A DNA stretch of 64,000 nt, taken from an uncultured Bacteroidales bacterium. Lineage in GTDB: Bacteria > Bacteroidota > Bacteroidia > Bacteroidales > Paludibacteraceae. The position numbers and the translations under genes are program-made. Below, piece by piece: positions 2,203 to 23,797 of this stretch. The stretch spans positions 1 to 64,000 of the forward strand of contig CADBYS010000022.1 in the NCBI GenBank assembly GCA_902798965.1, given 5' to 3'. Numbering within the stretch: position 1 is the stretch's first letter; each line of letters opens with the position of its first letter. The notes beneath the pieces are model-generated. The model was not told the origin of the DNA and made no database searches. It saw only the letters and a list, made by a program, of their open reading frames with translations.

Positions 2203-3612
2203 ATGCATAAAGGCGAGATAGATATAATCACGTTGGGTTGCTCGAAGAACCTGGTGGATGCGGAACGTGTGATGCGACGGCTGGAGTTGCACGGCTACAC
2301 GTGCGTGCATGACGCACCGGCACCTAAAGGCGAAATAGCGATCATCAACACCTGCGGATTCATCGGTGATGCCAAGGAGGAAAGCATCAACATGATATTG
2401 GAGATGGCTGAGCGGAAGAAACACCGGCAGCTGCGGCAACTGTACGTCATGGGCTGCCTGAGTCAGCGCTACATGGAGGAGCTGGTACGCGAGATTCCCG
2501 AGGTGGACGGCTGGTACGGGAAGTTTGATTACGATGCGCTCGTGGAGCTATTAGTCGAAAGTCGAAAGTCGAAAGTCGAAAGCCACAAATGTGCCGTATA
2601 TGAGCGGACAATAACCACGCCGAGGCACTACACGTACGTGAAGATATCCGAGGGCTGCAACCGCTTCTGCTCGTACTGCGCTATACCGCTGATTACCGGC
2701 AGACATCAGTCACGGCCGATGGACGAGATACTCGACGAGGTGCGCTGGCTCGTCACGCAAGGCGTGAAGGAGTTCAATATCATTGCACAAGATTTGTCGT
2801 CGTACGGGCTGGATTTGAGCTGTACGGATCTCACGGATCAAACGGAAAACAATGGTTCAAAAGCCAAAGGCAAACATCGGTTGGCGGAACTTATCGATCA
2901 GATGGCACAGATAGAGGGCGTGCAGTGGATACGCTTGCACTACGCCTACCCTGCCGACTTCCCGTACGATATACTGCCCGTGATGGCGAGACATCCGAAC
3001 ATCTGCAAGTACATGGATATCGCGTTGCAGCATTGCACGGATCATATGCTCAGCCAGATGCGCCGGCACATTACCGCCGCGGAGCAAGACGAACTGCTCG
3101 CGCGCATACGCCGCGAAGTGCCGGGCATAACGCTGCGCACCACCCTGCTGGTGGGACACCCGGGCGAGACCGAACAGGACTTTGAGGCACTCAAGGCGTG
3201 GGTACAAAAACAGCGATTCGACCGTATGGGCGCGTTCGCCTACTCCGACGAGGAAGGTACGTACGCCAACACCCATTACAAGGACGATATACCTGACGAG
3301 ATAAAGCAGCAGCGGCTGGATGAACTGATGATGATACAGGAGCAGATTGCCGCCGAGCTCAACGAGCAGAAGGTGGGCACCGTGCAGCGCGTGATCATCG
3401 ACCGCGAGGAAGGTGAGTATATGGTTGGCCGCACGCAATCCGACTCGCCCGAGGTGGACGGGGAAGTGCTGATACGAGTCGAAAGTCAAAAGACAGACCC
3501 TCCCCAACCCTCCCTCAAAGGGCGGGAGGATATACCAAACGTCAAAATCGGAGAGTTTTACGATATAAAAATAACCGGCTTCGAAGGAGTCGATTTATAC
3601 GGAGAGATATGA
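2203..3612 (+). CDS. rimO: Ribosomal protein uS12 methylthiotransferase RimO
   Basis: A radical-SAM enzyme that methylthiolates the conserved Asp of ribosomal protein uS12 in the cytoplasm. The N-terminal UPF0004 domain carries ITLGCSKN, NTCGFIG and GCLSQRY; the radical-SAM motif is C152-x3-C156-x2-C159 (GCNRFCSYC); a TRAM domain ends in DLYGEI. The protein is 469 aa, longer than the roughly 430-440 usual. The excess falls in three places that look inserted: residues 118-127 (VESRKSKVES, from a GTCGAAA array), about 206-222 (low-complexity, TDQTENNGSKAK), and 426-443 in the TRAM domain (ESQKTDPPQPSLKGRED, also repeat-derived). All three keep the frame, so the gene is probably functional. Its stop overlaps the next start (ATGA). 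Confidence 0.95.
   Translation: MHKGEIDIITLGCSKNLVDAERVMRRLELHGYTCVHDAPAPKGEIAIINTCGFIGDAKEESINMILEMAERKKHRQLRQLYVMGCLSQRYMEELVREIPEVDGWYGKFDYDALVELLVESRKSKVESHKCAVYERTITTPRHYTYVKISEGCNRFCSYCAIPLITGRHQSRPMDEILDEVRWLVTQGVKEFNIIAQDLSSYGLDLSCTDLTDQTENNGSKAKGKHRLAELIDQMAQIEGVQWIRLHYAYPADFPYDILPVMARHPNICKYMDIALQHCTDHMLSQMRRHITAAEQDELLARIRREVPGITLRTTLLVGHPGETEQDFEALKAWVQKQRFDRMGAFAYSDEEGTYANTHYKDDIPDEIKQQRLDELMMIQEQIAAELNEQKVGTVQRVIIDREEGEYMVGRTQSDSPEVDGEVLIRVESQKTDPPQPSLKGREDIPNVKIGEFYDIKITGFEGVDLYGEI
2554..2582 (+). repeat. In-gene heptamer array, 4 x GTCGAAA
   Basis: Four perfect GTCGAAA units plus one G inside rimO, read as V-E-S-R-K-S-K-V-E-S. An array of the same length lies in the UPF0597 gene at 15559-15587. 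Confidence 0.9.
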
Positions 3613-3887
3613 CAAACAAAGAACTTATTCAGTCCGTGTCGCAGAAGGCGGCACTGAGCAAGCAGGCAACAGAGAAGTTGCTTGAGTCAACCGTACAGAT
3701 CATTGCCCAGACGCTGAGCGAGGGAGGGGACGTTAAGATCCAACACTTCGGTTCGCTGGAGGTGCGTGATCATCAGTCACGAATCATCACCAACCCGCGC
3801 AACGGCAAGCAGACCGAGATTCCCGCCAAACAGGTGTGGACATTCAAGGCAAATAACCGGCTGAAGGAAGCGGTGAATGAGAAATAA
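3609..3887 (+). CDS. HU family DNA-binding protein, 92 aa
   Basis: A small basic histone-like protein that bends DNA as a dimer. It has the canonical HU layout: two N-terminal helices (TNKELIQSVSQKAALSKQATEKLL), then GGDVKIQHFGSLEVRDHQSRIITNPRNGKQTEIPA with the DNA-binding arm containing NPRNG (the usual RNP position reads NPRNG), and a C-terminal helix with FKANNRLKEAVN. Length is normal for the family. The start overlaps the rimO stop by 4 nt, so translation is probably coupled. The next gene carries a second HU fold. Confidence 0.9.
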   Translation: MTNKELIQSVSQKAALSKQATEKLLESTVQIIAQTLSEGGDVKIQHFGSLEVRDHQSRIITNPRNGKQTEIPAKQVWTFKANNRLKEAVNEK

Positions 3888-3894
3888 TAAATGT

Positions 3895-4025
3895 TAGTGA
3901 GCTTCGCTGTTAGTGATTTCATGTTAATGAGCCTCCGGCTGTTAATGATTGCATGTTAACACGAAGTCAACAACACGAAGTCACAAACACGAAGTCACAA
4001 ACACGAAGTAAATAACATGCAATAA
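3895..4025. repeat. Intergenic tandem repeats, including a 14-nt unit
   Basis: GTTAGTGAGC/GTTAATGAGC units come first. Then three to four copies of a 14-nt unit (ACACGAAGTCACAA) run from about 3957 to 4010. They fill almost the whole gap between the two HU-type genes. A 14-nt array of related sequence lies at 50306-50403. Confidence 0.75.
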
Positions 4026-4030
4026 CACAT

Positions 4031-5113
4031 ATGGCAGAACATTTGACGATGGTAGGTCTGCGTCGTGCATTGAGTGCACAGGGCAGAGTGAGCGAGAAGG
4101 TGGCAGATGACTTTCTTTCAGCCTTGACGGCAAGTATTCAGGACGGCCTGAAAGCAGACGGCAGCGTGACGGTCAACGGTTTGGGTACATTCAAACTGCA
4201 AGAAATGCCTGCACGCGAGAGTGTGAACGTAAGTACCGGCGAACGGATCACCATAGAGGGCTACAAGAAAGTGGTGTTCACGCAAGGCACGTCGCGCGCA
4301 AAAGCCGCCAAACACGCCCAGGAAGAACCGATTGACCCGATAAAGAAACTCGGTGAGCAAGCCGAGGAGATCAAGGATATACTGAGCGAGATTTCCGCTA
4401 TCAACGGGGAGGAACCGGCAGCAGAGCCGCAGCCGGTAGTATCGCCCGAGCCGGTAGTAGAACCCGAGCCTGTGGTAGAGCCGCAGCCGGTGGTAGAACA
4501 GCCTGTGGTAGAACAGCCTGCAGAGCAACCCGCAGAAGAGCCGAAAGAGGAAAAGGACGAGAAGAAGCCGTTCAATCCGTGGCTGACAGGACTGATAACT
4601 ATCGGAGTGTTTGCGATGGTTCTGGTGATCGTATTCTTTATTCTCCGGCACTCAATCATCCAATGGGCAGAGAACATGCGCTCGAATCTGGAGCAACGCG
4701 CAAATACGCCTAAACAGCAAACGGTAGAGCCGGAGAAAACGGCGGACTTCGCTGCCGAGGCGGAAGCAGTAGCGAGTGCGGAAAGCACGGAACAAACGGA
4801 AGTTACCGCAGCAAGCCCGGAAGCCAAAGAGCCGAGCTACTACAACGATGCCGAGAGGAAGTTCACGGAGTGGCAGGCTACGGAGATCGTGGGACAAGAC
4901 AGCCGGCTGGCATGGGTGGCAAAGAAACATTACGGCGAGAAAGCATTGTGGGTATTCATCTACGAGGCCAACAGAGACAAACTGAATGCCCCCGATCATG
5001 TGCTGCCCGGCATGGAGCTGCGCATACCCAAGCTGCCCGCTGAGCTTCGGGACGTAAATAACCCGAAGACCAAAGCCTTGCTCGAGAGGCTGAGCGAGGA
5101 ATATTTGCAATAG
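4031..5113 (+). CDS. Membrane-anchored HU-domain protein with C-terminal LysM domain
   Basis: A 360-aa protein with four parts. Residues 1-90 are an HU/IHF-like DNA-binding fold (LTMVGLRRALSAQGRVSEKVADDFL, then GSVTVNGLGTFKL and VNVSTGERITI). Residues 115-180 are a Pro/Glu/Val-rich linker with repeated PEPVVEPEPVV and QPVVEQP units. Residues about 184-206 are one transmembrane helix (TGLITIGVFAMVLVIVFFIL). The C-terminal part, after an acidic/Ala-rich stretch, holds a LysM-type fold (SRLAWVAKKHYGEKALWVFIYEANRDKL followed by PGMELRIPKL). LysM binds peptidoglycan and HU binds DNA, so the layout suggests a tether between nucleoid and cell wall; this role is inferred. The stop codon TAG shares its G with the following heptamer array. 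Confidence 0.85.
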   Translation: MAEHLTMVGLRRALSAQGRVSEKVADDFLSALTASIQDGLKADGSVTVNGLGTFKLQEMPARESVNVSTGERITIEGYKKVVFTQGTSRAKAAKHAQEEPIDPIKKLGEQAEEIKDILSEISAINGEEPAAEPQPVVSPEPVVEPEPVVEPQPVVEQPVVEQPAEQPAEEPKEEKDEKKPFNPWLTGLITIGVFAMVLVIVFFILRHSIIQWAENMRSNLEQRANTPKQQTVEPEKTADFAAEAEAVASAESTEQTEVTAASPEAKEPSYYNDAERKFTEWQATEIVGQDSRLAWVAKKHYGEKALWVFIYEANRDKLNAPDHVLPGMELRIPKLPAELRDVNNPKTKALLERLSEEYLQ

Positions 5114-5147
5114 TCAAAAGTCAAAAGTCGAAAGTCGAAAGCAAAAA
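5113..5147 (+). repeat. Heptamer array forming the entire uvrA leader
   Basis: Five heptamers (GTCAAAA x2, GTCGAAA x2, GCAAAAA). The array begins on the last base of the upstream stop codon and ends immediately before the GTG start of uvrA, whose GT is in phase with the repeat. Confidence 0.9.
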
Positions 5148-7880
5148 GTGGATAAAGGTGTGATACATATTGAAGGGGCGCGGACGAACAACCTGAAAAA
5201 CGTGAGCGTGGATATACCTCGCGAGCAGATGGTGGTAGTCACGGGCGTGAGCGGCAGCGGCAAATCGTCGCTGGCGTTCGATACCCTGTATGCCGAGGGA
5301 CAACGCCGGTACGTGGAGAGCCTGAGTTCCTACACGCGGCAGTTCCTGGGCAGGATGCAGAAACCTGATGTCGATACCATCGACGGTATACCTCCCGCGA
5401 TAGCCATAGAGCAGAAAGTGAGTTCGCGTAACCCGCGTTCTACCGTTGGCACCGTGACGGAGATCTACGACTACCTCAAGCTGCTCTTTGCGCGCGCCGG
5501 GGTGACCCTCTCGCCCGTGAGCGGCCTGGAGGTGAAGCGTCACACCGTAGCCGACGTGCTGCACACGCTGCGCGAGCAACCCAAAGGCACGCGCATCATG
5601 TTGCTCTCGCCCTTATCCGACCGCCCCTTGGAAAGCCTGATCAGCGAGGGCTACTCCCGCCTGCTGCACGTGCAGGAAGACGGCAGCGCGGATATACTGC
5701 GCCTGAGCAGCAGCCTGAACGAAGAGTTGCTGGAAGACCTGAGCAACGTGTATCTGCTGGTTGACCGCATCGTTGCCGACGGCGAGAAAGCCACCGAGAA
5801 CCGCTTTGCCGACTCCGTGCAGACCGCCTTCTATGAAGGCAAAGGCGAGTGCGTGCTGAGGATTGAAACGGAGATGGTGAAATTCTCGGAGCGGTTTGAG
5901 GCGGACGGCATACAGTTCGTGGAACCCACGGAGCATCTGTTTAACTTCAACAACCCGCTCGGCGCGTGCCCCACGTGCAACGGCTTCGGCAACATCATCG
6001 GCATCGATGCCGATCTGGTAGTGCCCGACAAGTCCAAGAGCATATACGAGGGGGCTATAGCCTGCTGGCGCGGCGAGAAGATGAGCGCCTGGAAAGACGA
6101 ACTGATCTACCACGCGGCGGAGTTCGACTTCCCCATCCATACGCCGTTCTATGCCCTGACACCCGAACAGAAACATCTGATCTGGACGGGCAACGAATAT
6201 TTCCACGGACTCAACGACTTTTTCCACATGCTCGAGAAAGACCAGTTCTCGAAGATCCAGTACCGCGTGATGCTTGCCCGCTATCGCGGCAAAGCCACCT
6301 GTCCGGACTGCCACGGTATGCGTCTCAGGAAAGAAGCCTCGTACGTTTGGGTGGGCGGCAAGCGCCTGACGGATATTGCCGCGATGCCTGTGAGCGAGGT
6401 GAAGCCTTGGGTGGAAGAGCTGGAAGAGCAATGCAAGGCCGGCGACAAACGCTTGGCAGGCATGGGCGAACTGCTCCTGGAGATCAAGAGCCGCCTGCAG
6501 TTCATGGAGGATGTGGGACTGAGCTACCTGACGCTGAACCGTATGGCCTCTACCCTCTCCGGAGGCGAGAGCCAGCGCATCAACCTGGCGAAATCCTTAG
6601 GCAGCAGTCTGGTGGGTAGTCTGTATGTGCTCGACGAGCCGTCTATCGGTCTGCACGCCCGCGACACCGAGCGCCTGATACATGTGCTGCACGAGTTGCG
6701 CGACCTGGGCAACACAATCGTAGTCGTGGAGCACGATGAGGATATCATGATGGCGGCGGACTATATGATTGAAATTGGTCCGAAAGCCGGCAGTCACGGC
6801 GGCGAAGTGACCTATGTAGGCAAGCCCAGGCTGCAGGAGTTTCCGTCGGTGATTCCGCCCGAACGCCGTCCGTGGAGTAACTATATCGAGGTGGTAGGCG
6901 CTGCCGAGAACAACCTGCAGAACCTGAATGTCAAGTTCCCATTGGGCGTGCTGACGGTGATCACGGGCGTGAGCGGCAGCGGCAAATCATCGCTGGTAAG
7001 CAAGGTGCTCTACCCTGCCTTGAAGAAACATTACGGTGGCATCTACGCCGAGCATACAGGCGACTACGGCAGTCTGAAAGGCAGTATGCATCTATTGAAG
7101 GACGCGGAGTTCGTTGACCAGAATCCGCTGAGTAAGTCTTCGCGCTCCAACCCCGTGACGTACATGAAGGCATTCGACGAGATCCGCCGCGTGTTTGCCG
7201 ACCAACAGCTGTCGAAGCAGATGGGTTATACGCCTGCCCACTTCTCGTTCAACACCCCGGGCGGGCGCTGCGAGCAGTGCCAAGGCGAAGGTACGATAAC
7301 CATCGAGATGCAATTCATGGCGGATATAGTGATCGAGTGCGAGCACTGCCACGGTATGCGCTACAAGCAGGAGATACTGGAGGTGACCTTCGGCGGCAAG
7401 AACATCCACGATATACTCGAAATGACCGTGGACGAAGCCATCGACTTTTTCACCGAGCACGGCTGCCGGAAAGTGGTGAAGCTATTGAAGCCCCTGCAGG
7501 ACGTAGGTATCGGTTACGTGAAGCTCGGTCAGTCAAGCAGCACGTTGTCGGGCGGTGAGAGTCAGCGCGTGAAACTCGCCTCGTACCTGGCTCAGGAGGA
7601 CAGCAAACCGATGATGTTCATCTTCGACGAGCCGACAACCGGATTGCATCATCAGGATGTGCTTGTGCTGCTCAATGCCCTGGAGCGACTGATAAGCAAG
7701 GGGCATACGGTAGTAGTGATTGAGCATAACCCCACGCTGATCATGGCAGCCGATCACGTGATAGATCTCGGCCCCGAAGGCGGTTCTGAGGGCGGACGGA
7801 TAGTGGCGGAAGGAACACCGGAACAGATCATGGCGTGCGAGCAGAGTTATACAGGTAAAGCATTGAAGAATTGGCTTTAA
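5148..7880 (+). CDS. uvrA: Excinuclease ABC subunit A, UvrA2-type
   Basis: The damage-recognising ATPase of nucleotide excision repair, working with UvrB and UvrC. It is 910 aa with two ABC ATPase halves: Walker A at residues 33-41 (GVSGSGKSS) and again in the second half, two LSGGESQR signatures, and Walker B regions LDEPSIGLH and FDEPTTGLH. Zinc-binding CxxC pairs are present ([32 protein letters not shown]). Details such as [30 protein letters not shown] and TLSPVSG resemble the second UvrA paralogue found in many Bacteroidota, so another uvrA may exist elsewhere. The start is GTG, directly after a heptamer array with no Shine-Dalgarno. The end overlaps the ABC-F gene by 10 nt. Confidence 0.93.
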
Positions 7881-9751
7881 GTGTTGAAAATATAGTTAAG
7901 GAGTACAGCTCCAAGCCGATATTGGCGGGGATCACGTTTCTGGTGAACAGGCGGGATCGTATAGCCTTGGTGGGTAAGAACGGTGCGGGTAAGACCACCC
8001 TGCTGCGTCTGATTGCGGGCGAGGAGACTCCCACCAGCGGACATATAACGCGCGATGCGGAGATGACCATCGGTTACTTGCCGCAACAGATGATGCACAA
8101 CGAGGGCACAACGCTCCGCGAGGAGGTAGATACCGTTCGCGACAAGCAAGACCCGAAGAGCGTGGGACAGATGGAGCGTGTGCTGATGGGTTTGGGCTTT
8201 GAGCGCACGGATTTTGACCGCCCGTGCAACGAGTTCAGCGGCGGCTGGAGGATGCGTATAGAGCTGGCGAAGATTCTGCTCAGGCAGCCCGAGTTGCTGC
8301 TGCTCGACGAGCCGACGAACCACCTGGATATCGAATCCATACAATGGCTCGAGGAGTGGCTGCAATCCGCTCCGTGCGCAGCAATCATCGTCAGCCACGA
8401 CCGTGCGTTCATCGATAATGTGACCAACCGAACGATCGAGATTTCGCTGGGGAAGATCTACGACTACAACGTACCTTACTCGCAGTTCGTCACCCTCAGG
8501 CAGGAGCGCCACGAGCAACAGGTGCGCGCCTACGAGAACCAGCAGAAGATGATCAAGGACACCGAGGAGTTCATCGAGCGCTTCCGCTACAAAGCCACGA
8601 AGAGCGTGCAGGTGCAGAGCCGCATCAAGCAACTCAATAAACTCGAGCGGCTGGAGGTTGATCTGGAGGACAACTCAAGGCTACGGATGAAATTCCCGCC
8701 CGCACCGCGCAGCGGAGATTTTCCCGTTATCGCCGATGATGTCCGCAAGGCATTCCCTTCACCCCACGGCGCGATGCTTGCGGGGACCCCGACCGGCGAA
8801 CACGTGGTGTTCGATCATGTGACGTTCACCATCCGACGTGGTGAGAAAGTGGCGTTCGTGGGCAAGAACGGCGAAGGCAAGACCACACTCGTACGCTGCA
8901 TCATGAACGAGCTGACCGACTATTCGGGCACATTGAAGATCGGTCATAACGTCAAAATCGGGTATTTTGCACAGAATCAGGCTTCGCTGCTCGACGGCGA
9001 ACTGACCGTGTTCGACACCATCGATCGCGTGGCGGTAGGCGACATACGCACGCGCATAAAAGATATATTAGGAGCGTTCATGTTCGGCGGCGAGGCGATA
9101 GACAAACGCGTGAAAGTGTTGTCGGGAGGCGAACGCAGCCGTCTGGCGATGATTCGGTTGTTGCTGGAGCCGGTAAACCTGCTTATCCTCGACGAGCCTA
9201 CCAACCACCTGGACATGCGCAGCAAGGATGTATTGAAGGAAGCGCTGCAGGCCTTCGACGGTACGGTGATTCTCGTGAGCCACGACCGCGATTTCCTCGA
9301 TGGCATCGTGAGCAAAGTGTATGAGTTCGGCGGCGGCAAAGTACGCGAGCACCTGGGCGGCATATACGAGTGGCTGCACTATAAGAATAGTCAAAAGTCG
9401 AAAGTCGAAAGTCAAAAGACGATGAACGATGCCGACAAAGCGATAGATCTTGCGTTGGGGCAGAAAGTCGAAAGTCAAAAGTCGAAAGTCGAAAGCGGAA
9501 GTGGTGCAGCCGACTATGCGGCGCAGAAAGCCAAGGCGGCTGAGCTCAGGAAAGCGCAGAAAGCGGTCAGTCAGGCGGAAGAGGATATAAGCCGCCTGGA
9601 GCAACAGATACTCGATATCGAGCAGATACTGGCAGAGGTAGAAGGGCAGTCGCCCGAGAACTTCGAGAAGTACAACCGCCTGAAGCGCTCGCTGGAGCAG
9701 CGCATGTACGAGTGGGAGATCCTCAGCGAACAACTGGCGGAGGTGCAATAG
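7871..9751 (+). CDS. ABC-F family ATPase (Uup/EttA-like)
   Basis: A cytosolic protein with two ABC domains and no membrane part; ABC-F proteins act on ribosomes as translation factors or antibiotic-protection factors. There are two Walker A motifs (GKNGAGKTT, GKNGEGKTT), two signatures (FSGGWRMR, LSGGERSR) and two DEPTNHLD Walker B motifs, with an ABC-F linker between and a C-terminal Lys/Glu coiled coil (residues about 545-626, LEQQILDIEQILAEVE). The first start in frame is TTG at 7871, inside the end of uvrA, giving the expected N-terminus [12 protein letters not shown]. Two heptamer-derived inserts lie between the second ATPase and the coiled coil, around residues 507-516 and 532-542. The substrate cannot be predicted. 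Confidence 0.9.
   Translation: MALSVENIVKEYSSKPILAGITFLVNRRDRIALVGKNGAGKTTLLRLIAGEETPTSGHITRDAEMTIGYLPQQMMHNEGTTLREEVDTVRDKQDPKSVGQMERVLMGLGFERTDFDRPCNEFSGGWRMRIELAKILLRQPELLLLDEPTNHLDIESIQWLEEWLQSAPCAAIIVSHDRAFIDNVTNRTIEISLGKIYDYNVPYSQFVTLRQERHEQQVRAYENQQKMIKDTEEFIERFRYKATKSVQVQSRIKQLNKLERLEVDLEDNSRLRMKFPPAPRSGDFPVIADDVRKAFPSPHGAMLAGTPTGEHVVFDHVTFTIRRGEKVAFVGKNGEGKTTLVRCIMNELTDYSGTLKIGHNVKIGYFAQNQASLLDGELTVFDTIDRVAVGDIRTRIKDILGAFMFGGEAIDKRVKVLSGGERSRLAMIRLLLEPVNLLILDEPTNHLDMRSKDVLKEALQAFDGTVILVSHDRDFLDGIVSKVYEFGGGKVREHLGGIYEWLHYKNSQKSKVESQKTMNDADKAIDLALGQKVESQKSKVESGSGAADYAAQKAKAAELRKAQKAVSQAEEDISRLEQQILDIEQILAEVEGQSPENFEKYNRLKRSLEQRMYEWEILSEQLAEVQ
9390..9495 (+). repeat. Two in-gene heptamer arrays in the ABC-F gene
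   Basis: The first array (9390-9418) mixes GTCAAAA and GTCGAAA, four units. The second (9464-9495) has GTCGAAA, GTCAAAA, GTCGAAA, GTCGAAA. They flank an 18-codon stretch (MNDADKAIDLAL). All stay in frame. Confidence 0.9.
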
Positions 9752-9765
9752 ACCGGCTACGCCTT

Positions 9766-9843
9766 AAAGAAAAAAGACCGCTAACGCTAAAAGACTAATT
9801 AGGCTTTTGTCTTTGAGTCCCAAAGGGACGGTCTTTCGACTAA
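9766..9843. repeat. Palindromic spacer repeat (AAAGACCG...CTAATTAG...CGGTCTTT)
   Basis: AAAGACCG near 9774 pairs with CGGTCTTT near 9830. The centre is GACTAATTAGGCTTTTGTC. Copies occur at 16412-16516, about 25077-25113 and 29390-29476. It may fold as a transcription terminator, but no clean T-run follows. Confidence 0.65.
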
Positions 9844-9850
9844 AAAGAAT

Positions 9851-15109: not shown

Positions 15110-15117
15110 TCACCATC

Positions 15118-16422
15118 ATGAAAACAACAGATATACTCGAACTGTTACACCAAGAGGTTATTCCCGCGATCGGCTGCACAGAGCCGATGTGCGTGGCGCT
15201 GTGTGTGGCGCGCGCCAAGGAGCAATTGGGCTGCGAACCCGATGCCATCACCGTGGAGGTGAGCAAGAACATCTACAAGAACGCCATGGGCGTAGGTATT
15301 CCCTGCACCGGCATGAACGGTCTGCCTATAGCCATTGCCTTGGGTGCAACCATCGGCAAGAGTGAGTATGAACTGGAAGTGCTGCGCGACACGACACCCG
15401 AAGCAGTCAGCTATGCCAAGGCATACTTGCAGCGCGTGCAACCGGAGATCACCATTGCTCATGATGCACCCGACATGCTATACGTACATGTTGCTGTTAG
15501 CAAGGACGAGCGAACAGCCGAAGCCACGATCCAGGGCAGTCACACGAACTTTGTTGGAGTCGAAAGTCGAAAGTCGAAAGTCGAAAGCTGGGACGATGGC
15601 TTCATAGATAATCAGCAACACGCAGTCACGTCGCTGCGCGAGGTATATGATTTTGCGATGAATGTGAAGCTCGATGATGTGCAGTTCCTAATGGAAGGCG
15701 CGAAGATGAATATGGCTGCCGCAGAGAAATCTTTCATGGGTGATTACGGTCATGGCCTGGGACGCTTACTGCACACCGTGAGCAACCAACACCTCACAAA
15801 CAGCCCGCACACGCAGATGTCGAATATCTTCGGCGACACATTGTTCACCAAGATACTCTGTTACACCTGCGGCGCATGCGATGCCAGAATGAGCGGAGCA
15901 ATGGTTCCGGTGATGAGTAACTCGGGCAGCGGCAACCAGGGAATAAGCTGCTCTATACCCGTGTATCTGTACGCTCTGGAGCACAACATGAACGAGGAGC
16001 AGACGCTGCGCGCACTGACGCTAAGTAACCTCACGGTGATCTATATCAAGCAGTCGCTCGGCAGGTTGTCGGCACTGTGCGGATGCGTAGTAGCAGCCAC
16101 GGGCAGTGCAGCGGGACTAACCTATCTGATGGGCGGACAATACGACGAGGTGACCTTCGCCATCAAGAACATGATTGCCAACATATCGGGTATGATCTGC
16201 GACGGCGCCAAGCCAGCCTGTGCGCTGAAGGTGACCAGCGGCGTAGCAACCGCCGTGCTCTCCGCCTCGATGGCAATGCATCACTCGTTTGCCGAATCGA
16301 CGGAAGGCATTGTGGAGGACGATATCGACCGCACGATACACAACCTGACACGCATCGGCCATGACGGTATGTGCCAGACAGATGACCTGATTATTGACAT
16401 AATGACTCATAAAGACCGCTAA
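15118..16422 (+). CDS. UPF0597 / L-cysteine desulfidase-like (CyuA/YhaM) protein
   Basis: Member of the serine dehydratase alpha-chain superfamily; relatives degrade L-cysteine to pyruvate, sulfide and ammonia using an iron-sulfur cluster. Landmarks are VIPAIGCTEPMCVALCVARAKE (residues 14-35), VSKNIYKNAMGVGIPCTGMNGL, MSNSGSGNQGI, LSALCGCVVAATGSAAGLTYLMGG, MICDGAKPACALKV. The conserved Cys residues that could hold a cluster are present. Residues 148-157 (VESRKSKVES) come from a four-unit GTCGAAA array between the two halves, in frame. Total length 434 aa, close to the family. The start ATG at 15118 follows the EptA-like gene by 8 nt, so it may be cotranscribed, though the functions look unrelated. 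Confidence 0.85.
   Translation: MKTTDILELLHQEVIPAIGCTEPMCVALCVARAKEQLGCEPDAITVEVSKNIYKNAMGVGIPCTGMNGLPIAIALGATIGKSEYELEVLRDTTPEAVSYAKAYLQRVQPEITIAHDAPDMLYVHVAVSKDERTAEATIQGSHTNFVGVESRKSKVESWDDGFIDNQQHAVTSLREVYDFAMNVKLDDVQFLMEGAKMNMAAAEKSFMGDYGHGLGRLLHTVSNQHLTNSPHTQMSNIFGDTLFTKILCYTCGACDARMSGAMVPVMSNSGSGNQGISCSIPVYLYALEHNMNEEQTLRALTLSNLTVIYIKQSLGRLSALCGCVVAATGSAAGLTYLMGGQYDEVTFAIKNMIANISGMICDGAKPACALKVTSGVATAVLSASMAMHHSFAESTEGIVEDDIDRTIHNLTRIGHDGMCQTDDLIIDIMTHKDR
15559..15587 (+). repeat. In-gene heptamer array, 4 x GTCGAAA
   Basis: Four perfect units plus G, encoding V-E-S-R-K-S-K-V-E-S; same length and same reading frame as the array in rimO. Confidence 0.9.
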
Positions 16423-16516
16423 CGCTCAAAGAGTAAAGACCGCTGCGCTCAAAGAGCAAAGACTAATTAGGCTTTTGTCTTTTGTCTTTGAGTGAGCGAA
16501 GCGAACGGTCTTTCGA
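16412..16516. repeat. Palindromic spacer repeat between the UPF0597 gene and prfB
   Basis: AAAGACCG occurs twice on the left (16412, 16436) and CGGTCTTT once on the right (16506-16513). CGCTCAAAGAGCAAAGAC pairs with GTCTTTTGTCTTTGAGTGAGCG around a central CTAATTAG. The left edge overlaps the end of the UPF0597 coding sequence (its last residues are KDR). Confidence 0.65.
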
Positions 16517-16531
16517 CTAAAATATTTTATT

Positions 16532-17638: not shown

Positions 17639-17714
17639 ACAGGGCACTAAAAGCCCAAAACAAGGCACAAAACCGTGCAAGATTCATTTTTTCGAACGAT
17701 TTACGGAAAAAAAC

Positions 17715-17745
17715 TTGCATATTTGAAAAAAAAGTTGTAACTTTG
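17715..17745 (+). promoter_or_regulatory. Bacteroidota-type promoter of rnpB
   Basis: TTG 17715-17717, 20-nt spacer, TAACTTTG 17738-17745. The RNase P RNA begins about 15-20 nt downstream. Confidence 0.85.
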
Positions 17746-17762
17746 TAGGCGCAATCATAAAA

Positions 17763-18052
17763 ACACGCGAAAGTCGTTTGGCTTATCGCTACCGGCAACG
17801 GTAGAGGAAAGTCGGGGCAGCACAGAGCACCGCAGCGGTTAACGGCCGTCGGGCAGAAATGTTCGGTCACTGCTACAGAGACGAGTGATGTGAAACGAGT
17901 ACACTGTGGGCTGCAATTCCATGTAAACCGATGTTTGAGCGTTGCTCGCGCGAGTCGGAGGGTAGGAAGCGATAGAAGTGCATGGCAACATGTACTCAAG
18001 ATTAATGATAGGCTAAAACAGAACCCCGCTTACGGAACGGCTTAACGCGTTT
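17763..18052 (+). ncRNA. rnpB: RNase P RNA (class A)
   Basis: The catalytic RNA of RNase P, which trims tRNA 5' ends. The 5' core GAGGAAAGTCGGGGC (about 17803-17817) and the 3' core ACAGAACCCCGCTTACGG (about 18018-18036) are the conserved P4 sequences; compared with the common GTCCGGGC / ACCCGGCTTA form, both strands carry matching changes. The helix P1 can form between CACGCGAAAGTCGTT (17764-17778) and AACGGCTTAACGCG (18036-18049), and a T-run follows at 18050-18056 as terminator. ATTAATGATAGGC and GAAACGAGTACA segments are present. End points are within a few bases. Confidence 0.92.
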
Positions 18053-18057
18053 TTTTA

Positions 18058-18094
18058 GGTTAAAGAGTTAAACGGTTAAATTGTTAAACTGTTA
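18058..18094. repeat. GTTAAA-type short repeats
   Basis: Five GTTAAA-like units at 8-10 nt spacing (GGTTAAAGAG, TTAAACGG, TTAAATTG, TTAAACTG, TTAATG) fill the gap between rnpB and the YihY gene. A reverse-orientation relative lies at 32898-32953. Confidence 0.65.
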
Positions 18095-19438
18095 ATGATC
18101 AGTTGGCAGGACATAAAGCAATTCATTGAGTACGACCTGTGGCGTAGGACGTCATCGGAACTACAGCAGTCGAGGCGCACCAAGCGTGTGGGTTTCGGCG
18201 TGCTCAAGACGATCATTCTTGTTATTCGCGGCTTTAACTCCAAGCAGCTGAACATGACAGCCAATGCGCTGACCTACAGTCTGGCATTTGCCATCGTACC
18301 GATTCTGGCAATGATCCTGGCAGTAGCCAAGGGATTCGGCTTTTCCGAGATGATCGAGAACCAGTTGCAGCAGTCCATGCTCGGCGAGACGAATCTTGTT
18401 CCCACGGTCATGGAGATAGTCGACCGCTATCTGGAAACAGCTCAAGGCGGTGCGTTCATCGGTATAGGTTTGCTCATTCTTATATGGGCAGTGTACAGCT
18501 TCTTCCGAAACGTGGAGCAGGCGTTCAACTCCATATGGGACGTTAAGAAGTCGCGTTCCGTGGTGCGCCAACTGACTACGTACATTGCCGTACTTTTCCT
18601 TGTTCCTGTACTTGTTGTCACCACTTCGGGTATGAGTATATTCGTACATTCAACCGTCGAATCGCTATCTGCATTCAAAGTGTTGGATGAATACCACAGC
18701 ACTATGGTGCGCATATTGCAGTTCTTGATTGTGTGGGTGATCTTCCTGTGGATGTACATGGCTATTCCGAACACGAAGGTGCATTTCCGCAGTGCCATCT
18801 ACCCCGCCATAATCATGGGAACGCTGTTCCAACTGCTGCAAATGCTGTCGATGTACGTGATTATGTTCCTCAGCCGCACGAGCATCGTGTACGGTGCGTT
18901 TGCCGCTATACCGATCATCATGATCTGGCTGCAGTGGGCTTGTCTGCTCATACTGATCGGTGCCGATCTGAGTTTTGCCATACAGAACAACGAGCAGTTT
19001 GAGTACGAGTTGGACGTACTGAGTATGTCGCGGCGCTACAAGGATTTTCTGACGCTATACCTACTCCACCGCATCATCTATCGCTTCGAGCACGACGAGA
19101 TACCCTACATGGCTGTGGAACTGGCGCACGAGAACAACCTGCCTATTCGTCTGGTCAGCCAACTGCTCAACCGTCTGGTGGATGTCGGGCTGCTGCGCAC
19201 CGTATATGTGGAGCAGAAGGAGGAGAAAACCTACCAGCCTGCCCTCGACACGCATCAAATAACCGTTGGCATGTGTATCGAGCGCATCGACAAGCAGGGC
19301 ACGGAGGAGTTCCTGCGCGGCGCGTCGACCGAGATGCAGGCGTTCTGGAAGCGCTATATGCAACTCAAGGACGAGCACAACACGCTCAAGCATATTCGGA
19401 TTGATGAGTTGATGATGGGAGAAGGAGTGAAGGAGTAA
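18095..19438 (+). CDS. YihY/UPF0761 family membrane protein, 447 aa
   Basis: An inner-membrane protein of the YihY family, once annotated as ribonuclease BN; that activity is not supported for the family and the function is unknown. Six helices are visible from residue 50 to 300, with MTANALTYSLAFAIVPILAMILAVAKGFG and IWAVYSFFRNVEQAFNSIWDVKKSRS typical of the family, then YGAFAAIPIIMIWLQWACLLILIGADLSFAIQNNE. The last 130 residues are a cytoplasmic extension that looks like a winged helix (IPYMAVELAHENNLPIRLVSQLLNRLVDVGLLRTV), as in other Bacteroidota members. The start ATG lies directly after a short repeat. Confidence 0.85.
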   Translation: MISWQDIKQFIEYDLWRRTSSELQQSRRTKRVGFGVLKTIILVIRGFNSKQLNMTANALTYSLAFAIVPILAMILAVAKGFGFSEMIENQLQQSMLGETNLVPTVMEIVDRYLETAQGGAFIGIGLLILIWAVYSFFRNVEQAFNSIWDVKKSRSVVRQLTTYIAVLFLVPVLVVTTSGMSIFVHSTVESLSAFKVLDEYHSTMVRILQFLIVWVIFLWMYMAIPNTKVHFRSAIYPAIIMGTLFQLLQMLSMYVIMFLSRTSIVYGAFAAIPIIMIWLQWACLLILIGADLSFAIQNNEQFEYELDVLSMSRRYKDFLTLYLLHRIIYRFEHDEIPYMAVELAHENNLPIRLVSQLLNRLVDVGLLRTVYVEQKEEKTYQPALDTHQITVGMCIERIDKQGTEEFLRGASTEMQAFWKRYMQLKDEHNTLKHIRIDELMMGEGVKE

Positions 19439-19465
19439 AGTATATATTGATAACCCAAAAATAAA

Positions 19466-21346
19466 ATGATTATGAAGAACATTTTTCGCGTAACATGTAT
19501 GGCTATGTGCCTGTTCTTGTCGTTAATGCTGCAAGCCAAGCCTCGCATCGAGCGGGCTGAGCCGCTGAGTTGGTTCACGGGTATGAAAATGCCGCTGACG
19601 CTTATGCTGCAGGGAGAAGATCTGGCTGACGCCGACGTAACCATCCAACAAGTGGTGGCAGGCAAAGTGATGAAAGGTCAATGCCTCGGCCTGACCGTGA
19701 AGAGTCAGCACAACGCCGAGTCGCCTAACTATCTGTTTGTTGACTTGCAGGCAAACGAGCCGGGAACGTACCGCATCACGCTCACCAAAAACAAGAAGTC
19801 TGCGTACATCAACTATGTGATCGAGCAACGCCGCCCTGAGCCGCGTGCCAACAAGAGCTACACGCCGGCTGACGTGATCTACCTGATTATGCCCGACCGT
19901 TTTGCCAATGGCGATCTGCTCAACGACGCAACAGAGGATACGGCCGAGAAACCTGCCTACGACGAGTGGTTTGGCCGTCACGGCGGTGACATCAAGGGTA
20001 TCATCGATCATCTGGATGCCATCAAGGCGCTGGGCGCTACAGCAATCTGGTGCACGCCGCTGCTGCTCGACAACGAGCCCACACAATCCTACCACGGCTA
20101 TGCTTGCGCGGATTATTACCATATCGACCCGCGTTACGGCAGCAACGAGCTGTATCGTAATCTCGTGAACGCCGCCCACAACAAGGGACTGAAGATGATC
20201 ATGGATATCGTGCCCAACCACTGCGGCTCGGCACACTGGTGGATGAAAGACCTGCCGTACCACGACTGGATTCACCAATATCCCGAGTTCACACGCTCCA
20301 ACTGGCAGTTCTCGACCGCAGCCGACCCCCACGCCTCGGAGGCTGACTTCTTAGGTATGAACAGCGGTTGGTTCGACACCTCGATGCCCGACATGAACCT
20401 CGACAACCCCGACGTGCTCAAGTACTTCCAGCAGTGGGCAATCTGGTGGATTGAGGCGATGGATCTTGACGGTTTGCGCGTAGATACCTACCCGTACAAC
20501 GAAAAAGTGCCTATATCCAAGTGGACAAAAGCTGTGCGCAATGAGTACCCGGGCATCAATATCGTAGGCGAGTGCTGGACGCGTCCTACCTCGCAAGTTG
20601 CTTACTGGCAAGCCGATGCACGTAACCCGGACGGCTACAACTCCAACCTGCCCTGCGTGATGGACTTCCCCTTGCAAGAGGCTATGATTGCCGCACTGAG
20701 CAACAACGGCGAAGGCTGGGGCAACGGAATGCTCAAGTGCTATGAGGTAGTGGCTGAGGATTTCCTGTACGCTCATCCCGACAACCTGCTCATCTTCAAT
20801 AGCAACCACGACACCCCGCGTGTTCGCGACATGTTGCTCGACAAGAGTTACGACCGCAACAAACTCATCGTAGCACTGCTGGCTACCATGCGCGGTATTC
20901 CGCAACTCACCTACGGCGAAGAGTACGGACTCATCTCCCTCAACCCCGAAGATGTAGGTAACCACGGTGCGCTGCGCGTTAACCATCCCTGGTTCAAAGG
21001 TACAGCCTCCAAGCTGGAGCCCGAACAGGAAGACCTGTACAAGTACTACGCCAAGATCCTGAACTGGCGTCGTGATTGCAAGACTATCCACGAGGGCAAA
21101 CTGATGCACTTCCTCAGCCGCGACAATACGTACGCTTACGTGCGTTATACGGATAAAGAGGCTGTGCTCGTATATATCAATGCCAGCAACGAGGAACGCC
21201 AGATGCCTGTGGCTCAATACCACGAGGTACTGATGAACTATCAGAAGAAAGGCACGGATGTCGTTTCCGATCAGCCGTTCGACCTCAACCAGCGCATCAC
21301 CGTTAAGCCGCTCACAGCTATCATCCTGCCGCTGGAGCATCTTTAA
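19466..21346 (+). CDS. Periplasmic GH13 alpha-amylase family enzyme (SusA/neopullulanase-like)
   Basis: Hydrolyses alpha-1,4/1,6 glucans or cyclodextrins. A signal peptide is present (MKNIFRVTCMAMCLFLSLMLQAKP); the second ATG at 19472 is an equally good start. An N-terminal Ig-like domain (about residues 25-120) precedes the barrel at about 135, beginning DVIYLIMPDRFANGD. Catalytic residues are visible: nucleophile Asp in LDGLRVDTYPY, acid/base Glu in NIVGECWTRP, and the third Asp in IFNSNHDTPR; MDIVPNHCGSAHWW is conserved region I. A C-terminal beta domain follows. The gene stands alone; no SusC/SusD or regulator is next to it in the window. Confidence 0.9.
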   Translation: MIMKNIFRVTCMAMCLFLSLMLQAKPRIERAEPLSWFTGMKMPLTLMLQGEDLADADVTIQQVVAGKVMKGQCLGLTVKSQHNAESPNYLFVDLQANEPGTYRITLTKNKKSAYINYVIEQRRPEPRANKSYTPADVIYLIMPDRFANGDLLNDATEDTAEKPAYDEWFGRHGGDIKGIIDHLDAIKALGATAIWCTPLLLDNEPTQSYHGYACADYYHIDPRYGSNELYRNLVNAAHNKGLKMIMDIVPNHCGSAHWWMKDLPYHDWIHQYPEFTRSNWQFSTAADPHASEADFLGMNSGWFDTSMPDMNLDNPDVLKYFQQWAIWWIEAMDLDGLRVDTYPYNEKVPISKWTKAVRNEYPGINIVGECWTRPTSQVAYWQADARNPDGYNSNLPCVMDFPLQEAMIAALSNNGEGWGNGMLKCYEVVAEDFLYAHPDNLLIFNSNHDTPRVRDMLLDKSYDRNKLIVALLATMRGIPQLTYGEEYGLISLNPEDVGNHGALRVNHPWFKGTASKLEPEQEDLYKYYAKILNWRRDCKTIHEGKLMHFLSRDNTYAYVRYTDKEAVLVYINASNEERQMPVAQYHEVLMNYQKKGTDVVSDQPFDLNQRITVKPLTAIILPLEHL

Positions 21347-21390
21347 TCTTTCTGCGAAGCGGTCTATACTCTTTTAGCGAAGCGGTCTAT
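21346..21390 (+). repeat. GCGAAGCGGTCT repeats forming the rlmN leader
   Basis: Two units of TCTTTCTGCGAAGCGGTCTATACTCTTT-type sequence. The second unit runs directly into the rlmN start codon (GCGGTCT then ATGG), so the repeat is the complete leader. Confidence 0.75.
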
Positions 21391-22552
21391 GGAACCACTA
21401 CTTGGTAAGACATTGGCAGAACTGCAGCAGATTGCCTGCGAGGCGGGTTTACCCCGCTTCGTGGGCAAGCAGCTCTGTGAGTGGATTTACCGCCATCGCG
21501 CTACGAGTTTTGAGCAGATGACGAACATCTCGCTCAAGGCGCGACAAGCCTTGCAGGAGAAATATTGCATCGGCCGCTTGGAATCTACCGCACAAGCCGT
21601 TTCTGTCGATGGCACACGCAAGTACCTCTTCCCTGTCAATCTAACAGCGAAGCGATCTAACAGCGATAGCGATCCAACAGCGCAGCGGTCTAACAGCGAC
21701 AGCGGTCGCTATATAGAGTGCGTGTATCTGCCCGAGGACGACCGCACCACGCTATGTGTGAGCACACAGGCAGGCTGTAAGATGGGTTGCCGATTCTGCA
21801 TGACCGGCACCTTGGGTTTTCACGGCAATCTGTCTGCCGCTGATATACTGGCACAAATACTATACTTCCCCGACTTGACCAATCTGGTGTTAATGGGCGA
21901 AGGTGAACCAATGGACAATATCGACAATGTGCTGCGCGCGCTCAACGTACTGACCTCGGAGTGGGGCTTAGGCTGGAGCGGCAAGCGCATCACGGTTTCT
22001 ACGGTGGGAGTGTTGGAAAGTCGAAAGTCGAAAGTCGAAAGTCAAAAGCAAATAGGAGAAAACGGGAAGCCTGCCTTGCAGCGATTCCTGGAAGAGACAG
22101 ATTGCCATCTGGCTATATCGCTGCACAATGCGTTCCCTGCCGAGCGCGCGGCAATCATGCCGGCAGAGCGGCTCACACCCATTCAAGAAGTGCTTGATCT
22201 GGTTCGTCAGTACGATTGGACACACCAGCGCCGCTTGTCGTTCGAATATATATGCTGGAGCAGCATGAACGACGATCTACCCCACGCCAAGCAACTGCTT
22301 CGGCTGCTCCGAAACCTACCCTGCCGCGTCAATCTTATCCGCTTCCATCAAACGGATACAGCGGATGCCCATAGCGGAAAGCCCGCCTCGCTCAAAGCAG
22401 ACAGACCTATATTCACAGCAAGCGACGAATCGCGCATGATTGCCTTCCGGGATTACCTCTCGGATCATGGCATCACATGCACCATTCGTCGCTCGCGTGG
22501 CGAAGACATACTTGCCGCGTGCGGCATGTTAGTCAACGCGTTACAGAAGTAA
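21389..22552 (+). CDS. rlmN: Dual-specificity 23S rRNA/tRNA C2-methyladenosine methyltransferase RlmN
   Basis: A radical-SAM enzyme that methylates A2503 of 23S rRNA and A37 of some tRNAs. The cluster motif is C130-x3-C134-x2-C137 (CKMGCRFCMTGT); the second catalytic Cys is C378 (ILAACGML); LVLMGEGEPMDN and HLAISLHNAFP are family motifs. At 387 aa it is about 40 residues longer than usual. Residues 85-106 (TAKRSNSDSDPTAQRSNSDSG region) come from four 16/17-nt repeats, 66 nt in total, and residues about 210-221 (ESRKSKVESQK) from a heptamer array; a third atypical loop near residues 330-345 (DTADAHSGKPASLKADRP) may also be added. All keep the frame and spare the catalytic residues, so activity is likely retained. 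Confidence 0.94.
   Translation: MEPLLGKTLAELQQIACEAGLPRFVGKQLCEWIYRHRATSFEQMTNISLKARQALQEKYCIGRLESTAQAVSVDGTRKYLFPVNLTAKRSNSDSDPTAQRSNSDSGRYIECVYLPEDDRTTLCVSTQAGCKMGCRFCMTGTLGFHGNLSAADILAQILYFPDLTNLVLMGEGEPMDNIDNVLRALNVLTSEWGLGWSGKRITVSTVGVLESRKSKVESQKQIGENGKPALQRFLEETDCHLAISLHNAFPAERAAIMPAERLTPIQEVLDLVRQYDWTHQRRLSFEYICWSSMNDDLPHAKQLLRLLRNLPCRVNLIRFHQTDTADAHSGKPASLKADRPIFTASDESRMIAFRDYLSDHGITCTIRRSRGEDILAACGMLVNALQK
21641..21706 (+). repeat. In-gene tandem repeat, four 16/17-nt units
   Basis: CTAACAGCGAAGCGAT, CTAACAGCGATAGCGAT, CCAACAGCGCAGCGGT, CTAACAGCGACAGCGGT; lengths 16+17+16+17 = 66 nt, exactly 22 codons. The core AGCGAAGCGGTCT is the same as in the intergenic palindromic family, so an intergenic-type repeat has moved into a gene. 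Confidence 0.9.
22015..22049 (+). repeat. In-gene heptamer array in rlmN
   Basis: Three GTCGAAA units followed by a GTCAAAA-type unit, in frame, read as E-S-R-K-S-K-V-E-S-Q-K. Confidence 0.9.
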
Positions 22553-22553
22553 C

Positions 22554-22904
22554 TTACTTACCTAAGCCTTCCAACAATCCTTCTACTGCCCCACCCAACT
22601 CAATCAGAGCATCGTGCATTCCGTTGGCACTATCGTCCAGGGAGTGCTTGGCGAACTTAGCCTTGCAACGGCCTTTCAGCTTACCTATCTCACGCTTCTG
22701 CTCGTCGGTGTATTCGTAATTATCCAGCGTTTGGCAGATATCGGCGTAATGCAGCACGGCTTCGTCCCAATCGGCTGCTGACCAATTGTCGGACTTCTGT
22801 TCAATACGTTCGGTAAACTTCTGCAAATCATTGAAAGCAGTTTCCGAGGGGTTGCAAGCCACAAACAGGAGGCTGAGCAACAGTAATGATAAAATTTTTT
22901 TCAT
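22554..22904 (-). CDS. Small lipoprotein, 116 aa
   Basis: MKKILSLLLLSLLFVAC is a signal peptide with lipobox (LFVAC, Cys17). The mature part is helical and polar (NDLQKFTERIEQKSDNWSAADWDEAVLHYADICQTLDN..TDEQKREIGKLKGRCKAKFAKH), ending with a hydrophobic Gly/Leu segment. No enzymatic motif. Similar DUF-type lipoproteins with a W..aDWd.a...y pattern are common in Bacteroidales; function unknown. The start overlaps the ribF stop by 4 nt (ATGA), indicating cotranscription and coupled translation with ribF, although no functional link to flavin synthesis is apparent. It converges on rlmN with a 1-nt gap. Confidence 0.75.
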   Translation of the reverse strand: MKKILSLLLLSLLFVACNPSETAFNDLQKFTERIEQKSDNWSAADWDEAVLHYADICQTLDNYEYTDEQKREIGKLKGRCKAKFAKHSLDDSANGMHDALIELGGAVEGLLEGLGK

Positions 22905-23797
22905 ATTCTTTGTAAATCTTTGTTTATCTGTTCACGCAATTCGTCCAGCGAGTTGAAGCGTTGTTCGCTTCGCAGCCGTTCGATGAATTGCAAGGTAAGC
23001 GTCTGGTTGTACAGATCACCGTCATATCCGGGTATATGTACCTCAATCGTCTGGTGCGTATTTCCCACTGTAGGATTCGTACCGATATTCACCAGCGCCA
23101 TTTTCTCGCCTACATTGCTTTCGACTATCGACTTTTGACTTTCGACTATTACCCTAACCTTGTACACTCCCGCCGCGGGCACAAGCTTGGCTGCATCGGG
23201 CATAATGTTTGCCGTGGGGAAACCTATCTGCCGGCCAATCATTCGTCCGTGCACTACCCTTCCGGTCAGGCTGTACTCATAGCCAAGCAGGCGATTCGCG
23301 GACTCAATATTCCCCTCGCTCAGGTAATTGCGGATGCGAGTGGATGATGGCCGCTCGCCATCCTCGCTATACGGCTCGGCGCGTAGCACACGGATGCCTA
23401 CGGCTTGTGCGATCGAGGCATATTGCTCGTCGCTCATGCGGCCGTCCGAACCGAAATGGTGGTTATAACCCATGAGCAGGTACTTCACTTTCCAGCGGTC
23501 GGAGAGGTAATCCAAGAATTGCGCGGCGGTCAGAGGTTGCACTTCCGCAAAGTCAAAGAAATGCACATCGCCGAACTGCCCGAGCAGTCGTTCGCGCTCA
23601 TCGAGCGTGGTTAGCAGCGGCGGATTGAAGGCATCAGCGCCCTTCAGTTGCGCCAGCACGCTGCGCGGGTGTTGCAGAAAGGTGAAGATCAGTGCCCGCA
23701 AATCATGCTCGGCAGCGTGCATGCGCAGCTGCTCAAACAGGTATCGGTGTCCCTTGTGAACGCCGTCAAAGAATCCTATGGTTGCTATTGCGGGCAT
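22901..23797 (-). CDS. ribF: Bifunctional riboflavin kinase / FMN adenylyltransferase
   Basis: Converts riboflavin to FMN and then FAD in the cytoplasm. The N-terminal adenylyltransferase has ATIGFFDGVHKGHRYLF (residues 4-20); the C-terminal kinase begins near residue 180 with GRVVHGRMIGRQIGFPTANI and continues with NIGTNPTVG. In the kinase, residues about 216-227 (VESQKSIVES, followed by NVGEK) are an insertion from a heptamer array, placed before the conserved ALVNIGTNPT strand. Total 298 aa, normal for the family. The start ATG 23797 is fixed by the conserved N-terminus. No FMN riboswitch is visible upstream; the upstream gap holds a 29-nt tandem repeat. Confidence 0.94.
   Translation of the reverse strand: MPAIATIGFFDGVHKGHRYLFEQLRMHAAEHDLRALIFTFLQHPRSVLAQLKGADAFNPPLLTTLDERERLLGQFGDVHFFDFAEVQPLTAAQFLDYLSDRWKVKYLLMGYNHHFGSDGRMSDEQYASIAQAVGIRVLRAEPYSEDGERPSSTRIRNYLSEGNIESANRLLGYEYSLTGRVVHGRMIGRQIGFPTANIMPDAAKLVPAAGVYKVRVIVESQKSIVESNVGEKMALVNIGTNPTVGNTHQTIEVHIPGYDGDLYNQTLTLQFIERLRSEQRFNSLDELREQINKDLQRI
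23122..23152 (-). repeat. In-gene heptamer array in ribF
   Basis: On the coding strand: GTCGAAA, GTCAAAA, GTCGATA, GTCGAAA. Although the gene is on the minus strand, the array has the same orientation relative to translation as in the four plus-strand genes. Confidence 0.88.

Follow-up and report, generated by a model that had tools for sequence, protein, structure and literature searches.

The stretch analyzed here (the window) comprises the 64,000 nucleotides (nt) at positions 1 to 64,000 of contig CADBYS010000022.1, assembled from an uncultured Bacteroidales bacterium of the family Paludibacteraceae, and carries tandem arrays of the heptamer GTCRAAA (GTCGAAA or GTCAAAA) inside five housekeeping genes as well as between genes. 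An earlier note, made from the DNA letters alone, had reported such arrays in rimO, in an ABC-F gene (two), in a UPF0597 gene, in rlmN and in ribF as well as in intergenic gaps, and all of them were located (Table 1). Pfam matches agree with these gene names, with UPF0597 showing up as SDH_alpha. Six exact four-unit arrays and one with a single mismatch were found where chance predicts none, and the two-unit pattern matched the window 21 times compared with 0.00 matches expected from 100 shuffles. Six of the seven four-unit copies are in frame within the five genes, the seventh being intergenic. All genic arrays are read in sense and leave the open reading frames (ORFs) of their hosts uninterrupted, that of minus-strand ribF included, which bears out the single orientation relative to translation described before. 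With so few mismatches, and none of the seven copies carrying two or three, the element set looks young.

Table 1. GTCRAAA arrays of the window. In the four-letter codes, G stands for a GTCGAAA unit and A for a GTCAAAA unit.
Feature	Host or location	Position	Array	Strand	Remark
Four-unit element GGGG	rimO	2553..2582	2554-2581	+	Encodes VESRKSKVES; between UPF0004 and radical SAM domains
Two-unit array	rimO, second site	3478..3491		+	Low-confidence loop of TRAM domain; different insert TDPPQPSLKGRE after array
Four-unit element AAGG	Intergenic	5112..5141	5113-5140	+	
Four-unit element AGGA	ABC-F gene, C-terminal part	9389..9418	9390-9417	+	
Four-unit element GAGG	ABC-F gene, second copy	9466..9495	9467-9494	+	
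Four-unit element GGGG	UPF0597/SDH_alpha gene	15558..15587	15559-15586	+	
Four-unit element GGGA	rlmN	22019..22048	22020-22047	+	
Four-unit element, one mismatch	ribF	23118..23147	23119-23146	-	Encodes VESQKSIVES
Two-unit array	Intergenic	29375..29388		+	

Since a copy of 30 nt is a multiple of three and all three sense frames yield one peptide cycle without a stop, the element is largely frame-neutral. The cycle S-R-K-S-K-V-E given in the earlier note stands, but it varies with the unit, one position being R or Q and another E or K. In the predicted model of RimO (mean pLDDT 76.7; 10 sequences), the first insert, flanked by the matches to UPF0004 (7-106) and radical SAM (147-333), overlaps at its start with the last part of a helix (110-122), from where it continues into a low-confidence stretch (125-138); the TRAM match contains the second insert, in a loop (429-443) that is again of low confidence. 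Since two further such stretches (152-167 and 199-222) lie away from the inserts, low confidence is no distinguishing mark of them. In the RimO alignment, the three cysteines of the radical SAM motif do not vary.

Some observations concern the immediate surroundings of these copies. The rimO segment 3' of the two-unit array (3492-3530), encoding TDPPQPSLKGRE, is missing in the aligned relatives, and peptides resembling it (SSLKGRED) were seen in the ABC-F gene of another genome. The TAG stop (5111-5113) of the ORF at 4031-5113 ends on the first G of the intergenic four-unit array, the stop codon being partly supplied by the element. Within the rlmN ORF, positions 21639-21704 hold another in-gene repeat (33 bp, two copies), the protein reading LTAKRSNSDSDPTAQRSNSDSGR.

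Census and architecture of the arrays

The genome to which the window belongs (2,847,697 bases in 51 contigs, a 90.26% complete draft) holds 203 matches to three consecutive units, 103 in forward and 100 in reverse direction, with the reversed control giving 0 and 0. By arithmetic, 199 of them fall into 103 distinct arrays of at least three exact units, of which 82 count four units, 15 three, 4 five and 2 six. The description of the repeat as a simple heptamer thus holds for the unit but not for an arbitrary length, four units being dominant. Genes were called by a purpose-made codon-score ORF caller and not by a standard annotator; on this basis, 63 arrays are genic in sense and 4 in antisense, 30 are intergenic and 6 partly overlap a gene. 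As called genes make up 86% of the array-bearing stretches, 89 of the 103 arrays would be expected to be genic at random, compared with 67 observed. Genes are under-hit by arrays, yet far from avoided. Short bacterial repeats have mostly been described between genes; in this genome, most copies are found inside genes, rimO and rlmN included.

Comparison of the 82 four-unit arrays revealed constant ends, the preceding base being A and the following base G in all 82 cases, with this G in turn being followed by C in 73 and by A in 8 of them. Further upstream, position -2 is often T (41) or G (24) and position -3 often A (44) or T (27). The 20 intergenic copies among them show similar ends, with C at +2 in 18. 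Furthermore, the GTCAAAA (A-type) units are unevenly placed, occurring at positions 1, 2, 3 and 4 in 11, 39, 15 and 16 of the 82 arrays (p = 6e-7). In combination, constant ends and position-biased A-type units suggest copying as blocks. We consider it probable that the arrays are copies of a tiny dispersed element of ~30 nt that spreads as a block of four heptamers, A-(GTCRAAA)x4-G, the next base mostly being C. The dominant unit number points in the same direction, as do the flanks of 76 of the 103 arrays, which match those of no other array, the wide differences in copy number from one related genome to the next, and the orthologous sites found empty or with another insert. New copies would derive from other arrays rather than from local expansion.

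Alternatively, polymerase slippage could have built each array on the spot out of a heptamer present by chance, with one unit plus three further units (21 nt) representing the first in-frame gain and thereby leading to four units. Although the favoring of period 7 over other periods and the many different heptamer units in the genus fit such an origin, slippage fails to give one unit at ~100 places and the constant A...G ends, and A-type units with specific positions are not expected if it made each array independently. Nor does it account for the four-unit majority between genes, where frame is irrelevant: exactly four exact units were counted in 20 of the 30 intergenic arrays and in 53 of the 63 sense genic arrays. 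We regard local slippage as unlikely.

Copies occur at each of the three codon phases and, outside genes, in either orientation. Of the 53 four-unit arrays lying in sense in genes of the window's genome, 30, 14 and 9 are in codon phases 0, 1 and 2. A T at position -2 would create a TAG in phase 2, and none of the nine phase-2 arrays has a T there. The corresponding counts in relatives are 43, 17 and 26, so that the phase-2 shortage is not general. A hairpin as the unit of the element was rejected: in raw folding energies the GGGG form reaches -7.0 kcal/mol, and the commonest form, GAGG, folds poorly with only -3.6 kcal/mol.

Extension of the search to other genomes located triple matches in 23 of the 37 same-genus genomes (the window's included), ranging from 0 to 203 per genome, and, outside the family but within the order, in one of 24 genomes, while three genomes had a single match each to the reversed control. 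When species genomes were scanned with the pattern, at least 110 stretches matched, which sets a lower bound on the taxonomic spread. Among the matches listed, 86 belong by record title to Paludibacteraceae, Bacteroidales, Bacteroidia or Muribaculaceae, with many ruminant or horse samples, and 24 originate from Flavobacteriaceae, cyanobacteria, Moranbacteria and others; two viral contigs also carry array matches. Judged by reading of the translated sequence, two Moranbacteria genomes have the array at about the same place of a TsaD-like gene (L152, ~7090-7117; L201, ~6570-6597), a Flavobacterium omnivorum strain record has a GAGG array in a LeuRS-like gene (L170, 943-970), and a Pyrinomonadaceae genome has one in an ABC-F-like gene. 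An assembly or binning artefact might be suspected, the window's genome being a draft of 51 contigs with 90% completeness and many relatives being metagenome-assembled. However, the arrays occur in many separate assemblies as well as in the F. omnivorum strain record, and at ~30 nt they are shorter than sequencing reads. We give this explanation almost no credence.

Reading direction and orthologous sites

The orientation analysis left out 30 arrays from 27 loci (other orders or phyla, the two viral contigs, and one other-family genome of the order) and a further 3 genic arrays whose ORF scores were weak; two records with no title beyond Bacteroidia bacterium, and one from Muribaculaceae, counted as Bacteroidales. 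The ratio of sense to antisense among the remaining genic arrays is 146:9, to which the window's genome contributes 62:4 and other Bacteroidales 84:5. The earlier note held that genome-wide counts free of strand or frame bias would speak against insertion in frame and in constant orientation; the bias toward sense in genes is strong and, together with the array-free orthologues presented below, upholds that claim. Stop codons as the whole cause of the orientation were ruled out. The observation that the reverse of GTCAAAA gives TGA is true, but it applies to only one of three frames for a single unit, so that stops alone do not explain the orientation: a stop-codon-only model expects an antisense share of 0.405, compared with 9 of 155 observed (p = 4e-23; as some arrays are shared by descent and hence not all independent, this and the following orientation p values are too small). 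Arrays without an A-type unit, being open both ways, are likewise mostly in sense with 32:7 (p = 7e-5), divided into 20:3 in the window's genome and 12:4 in others (p = 0.08 for the latter alone). An insertion polarity linked to transcription is also unsupported, since intergenic arrays between codirectional genes show 19:13 (p = 0.38), differing from the genic ratio (Fisher p = 2e-6).

With a sense bias in genes and no bias between them, insertion itself appears blind to orientation, and we infer that the encoded peptide is under selection, removing antisense genic copies. The sense frames are hydrophilic, with a grand average of hydropathy (GRAVY) of -1.2 to -2.2, and the antisense frames near-neutral to hydrophobic (-0.2 to 0.7). 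Genic copies would persist mainly if read as hydrophilic VES(R/Q)KSKVES in a permissive loop. Without any experiment, insertion and selection can be told apart by comparing 146:9 within genes with 19:13 between them. In addition, the 7-nt period, a length divisible by three and the lack of a sense stop suggest a survival route inside genes. The arrays offer a measurable route for selfish-looking DNA to lengthen proteins, by ~10 amino acids (aa) per copy.

Orthologues were compared on protein level and, with relatives such as the genomes G001 and G007, on DNA level. The protein-level sample covered 152 sense genic arrays (63 from the window's genome and 89 from others, 4 of these from other orders or phyla), and for 39 of them at least one array-free orthologue that conserves half or more of the flank residues was found. 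In total, 172 alignments were without array, 58 of which passed the flank criterion, and 93 further alignments had the array. A clean empty site is exemplified by an array-bearing protein aligned with ICNPFE-NMAVVDEF. An ancestral peptide, which the earlier note named as a refutation, was not encountered where orthologues are array-free; for the other arrays, the data contained no such orthologue. Some insertions are shared between species, e.g., that in rlmN, which is common to the window's genome and G001, indicating that insertions persist. Within the 58 alignments, net length differences range from -19 to +12 aa, with 0 being the commonest (7) followed by 7 and 10 (5 each); net differences of zero or below often represent another insert in the relative.

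Such differently filled sites were also found in genes of the window. At the UPF0597/SDH_alpha site, G001 is without array and G007 has a different insert. The first rimO loop, holding GTCGAAA x4 in the window, contains AAAATGC repeats in G001, an insert with CCCTTTAGGGAGGG in G007 and AAAATGG repeats in G035, the remaining relatives having short or unlike loops. At one gene site, two loci with the array in sense (L145 and L033) face two with a reversed GTCGAAA array (L169 and L130) without any net length difference. Across 74 orthologue pairs representing 42 genes of the window's genome, a heptamer array coincides with 12 of 49 internal length differences of at least 6 residues, the other 37 being without heptamer array by that test. 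As a separate observation, the loci L267, L273 and L276 show hairpin-like inserts of type CACCCCGCTGCGCAAGCTTGTGGGGACCCCG where the window's genome has heptamer arrays.

These sites bear on a function at the DNA or RNA level, according to which the arrays would be bound by a nucleoid protein or a global regulator and retained by selection wherever they lie. As far as the accessible parts of these papers go, the authors read comparable arrays of Geobacter metallireducens (PMC2700814) and of Beggiatoaceae (PMC4679880) as regulatory. Here, however, the same loop holds different heptamers or other inserts in relatives, the triple match is absent in 14 of the 37 same-genus genomes, and an orientation preference between genes was undetected (19:13), rendering this function very improbable.

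Proposed copying of the element and points of doubt

The ~30-nt element could be copied by template switching at replication forks, from one short repeat to another, or by a trans-acting recombinase that has escaped recognition; we rate the two about equally likely. Profile matches to RVT_1 and Y1_Tnp in the 37 genomes identified no mobilising enzyme. An RVT_1 reverse transcriptase as the engine was rejected: it has no match in the window's genome (~90% complete), and its matches in 8 of the 37 same-genus genomes (2 of the 9 with at least 20 triple matches and 6 of the 28 others) are without association with copy number. Y1_Tnp exceeds the cut-off in 12 of 37 genomes, the window's genome having two weak partial matches; it is present in 5 of the 9 high-copy genomes compared with 7 of the 28 others, an association which is not significant (Fisher p = 0.12), and the matches are mostly weak and partial.

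The lack of an identified enzyme is one of several points that weigh against the block element. Nine antisense genic copies exist. When degenerate neighboring units are included, the share of arrays with four units is reduced to 62 of 97, made up of 46 of 67 inside genes and 16 of 30 outside them. The alignment of host proteins, from which the earlier note expected insertion edges, yielded array-free sites but, given the scattered net lengths, no standard edge. On DNA level, differences to near relatives of 15, 27, 36, 42, 54 nt and others include no clean 30, and no target duplication was identified in this comparison, the relatives being too diverged to show one. The many other unit sequences in the genus are also compatible with frequent local birth of heptamer arrays. 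Finally, the flanks of 27 of the 103 arrays resemble those of another array to some extent, in 16 cases over at least 50 bp, which slightly lowers our confidence in the block; in 9 of the 103 the similarity directly adjoins the array in register, so that some copies may have spread within a longer repeat.

The same flanks could indicate that arrays are passengers or ends of a longer mobile element, i.e., an insertion sequence (IS), a miniature inverted-repeat transposable element (MITE), or a REPIN moved by a Y1 transposase. The downstream likeness of ~50-99 bp among L057, L063 and L088 and the more frequent Y1_Tnp in high-copy genomes would agree with it. As to MITE features, the arrays are direct repeats with the ends A and G[C/A], in which no terminal inverted repeat was seen. 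Against a longer element stand the 76 arrays without any flank match, the mostly partial and weak Y1_Tnp matches lacking a significant association, and the absence of RVT_1 matches from the window's genome. A longer element is in our opinion quite improbable, and copying as a four-heptamer block remains the preferred explanation, one that bears on how very small repeats move.

Other heptamers and known systems

Imperfect tandem runs in the window's genome are dominated by period 7 (140 runs, with period 8 reaching 13 and period 14 reaching 15), as are those in other loci (303 compared with at most 36 for period 11), with the loci being largely picked for GTCRAAA arrays, which contribute 103 and 147 of the period-7 counts, and with some cyanobacteria among them. 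If only exact runs are counted, the window and the loci picked by position only give 27 for period 7, 7 for period 11, 11 for period 14 and at most 3 for each of the remaining periods from 4 to 13. After exclusion of GTCRAAA and of most other-phylum loci (a few, e.g., L178, are still contained), 131 heptamer arrays were obtained, 55 genic and 76 intergenic, of which 79 have a length of 27-35 bp. The sense unit is stop-free in 44 of the 55 genic arrays and would hold a stop in 11 if perfectly repeated. Other units in genes of the genus comprise AAAATGC, CTCAACR, AATCAGC, AAAGGTG and others. Being of similar length, these arrays may be relatives in kind of the GTCRAAA element.

Tentatively, and with more doubt than conviction, one may extend this to a superfamily of frame-neutral ~30-nt tandem heptamers of many units, which would repeatedly enter the same permissive loops across species of the genus. 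If true, this would imply a copying machine setting period and length rather than sequence, and the superfamily would continually supply proteins with in-frame linkers. Its range would then extend beyond one genus, given the copies outside the order in genes that look universal.

Rickettsia palindromic elements, to which the earlier note compared the arrays, are palindromic, ~100-150 nt long and tolerated in frame within protein genes. The arrays resemble them in their in-frame presence but not in kind, being ~30-nt tandem direct repeats and not palindromic. STRR heptamers of Nostoc and relatives are mostly intergenic and variable in copy number; GTCRAAA shares the tandem heptamer, but is genic in 67 of 103 arrays and four units long in 82. 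The small dispersed repeats (SDR) of the same group, 21-27 nt long and thought to be mobile, share with the ~30-nt element a size well under 100 nt, and for the latter movement is suggested by array-free orthologous sites. Some SDR families have a shared secondary structure, which the weakly folding GAGG form of GTCRAAA does not provide.

By analogy, elements of four heptanucleotides in G. metallireducens are the closest precedent: 49 copies with the unit GGACCGG are predicted to be regulatory RNA elements in the available passages (PMC2700814). As here, they consist of four tandem heptamers, lie within and between genes and sometimes occur more than once per gene, while the unit differs from GTCRAAA and those passages carry no analysis of frame, orientation or empty sites (PMC2700814). 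The dispersed direct repeats of TAACTGA in Beggiatoaceae, cyanobacteria and Bacteroidetes lie, as far as the accessible text of that study goes, for the most part between genes and, in the main genome, usually just ahead of a start codon, with some sets within ORFs, there mainly near protein ends (PMC4679880). According to the same text, its author already discussed frames, stops and possible mobility; in contrast to GTCRAAA in sense, the forward orientation gives stops (PMC4679880). REPINs, described in the available part of their report as pairs of mostly extragenic REPs that form a hairpin and are associated with a RAYT transposase, are likewise very short, non-autonomous and dispersed, whereas the present arrays are direct repeats, mostly genic, with no convincing enzyme found (PMC3116915). 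Overall, the heptamer repeats of Geobacter, Beggiatoaceae and cyanobacteria are closer to the arrays than the Rickettsia palindromic elements.

To these known heptamer repeats, the present analysis adds the genic majority, the measured coding selection and the constant ends, together with the wide copy-number range within a genus and the different heptamer inserts at the same loops. The peptides SRKSKVE, SQKSKVE, KVESQKSK and KVESRKSK were not found in the literature searched, and the string GTCGAAAGTC occurs there in papers that appear unrelated from their available portions.

The window contains further tandem repeats. On the minus strand, positions 51649-51678 hold a related heptamer array with the unit GACAAAA. 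A 14-bp array (ACTGCGTGTTAATG, 7.1 copies) is located at 50306-50405 and an 11-bp array (ATTAACACGCG, 3.3 copies) at 55269-55304, and longer tandem repeats with periods of ~21 and ~42 bp were found at 41112-41284 and 43711-43888.

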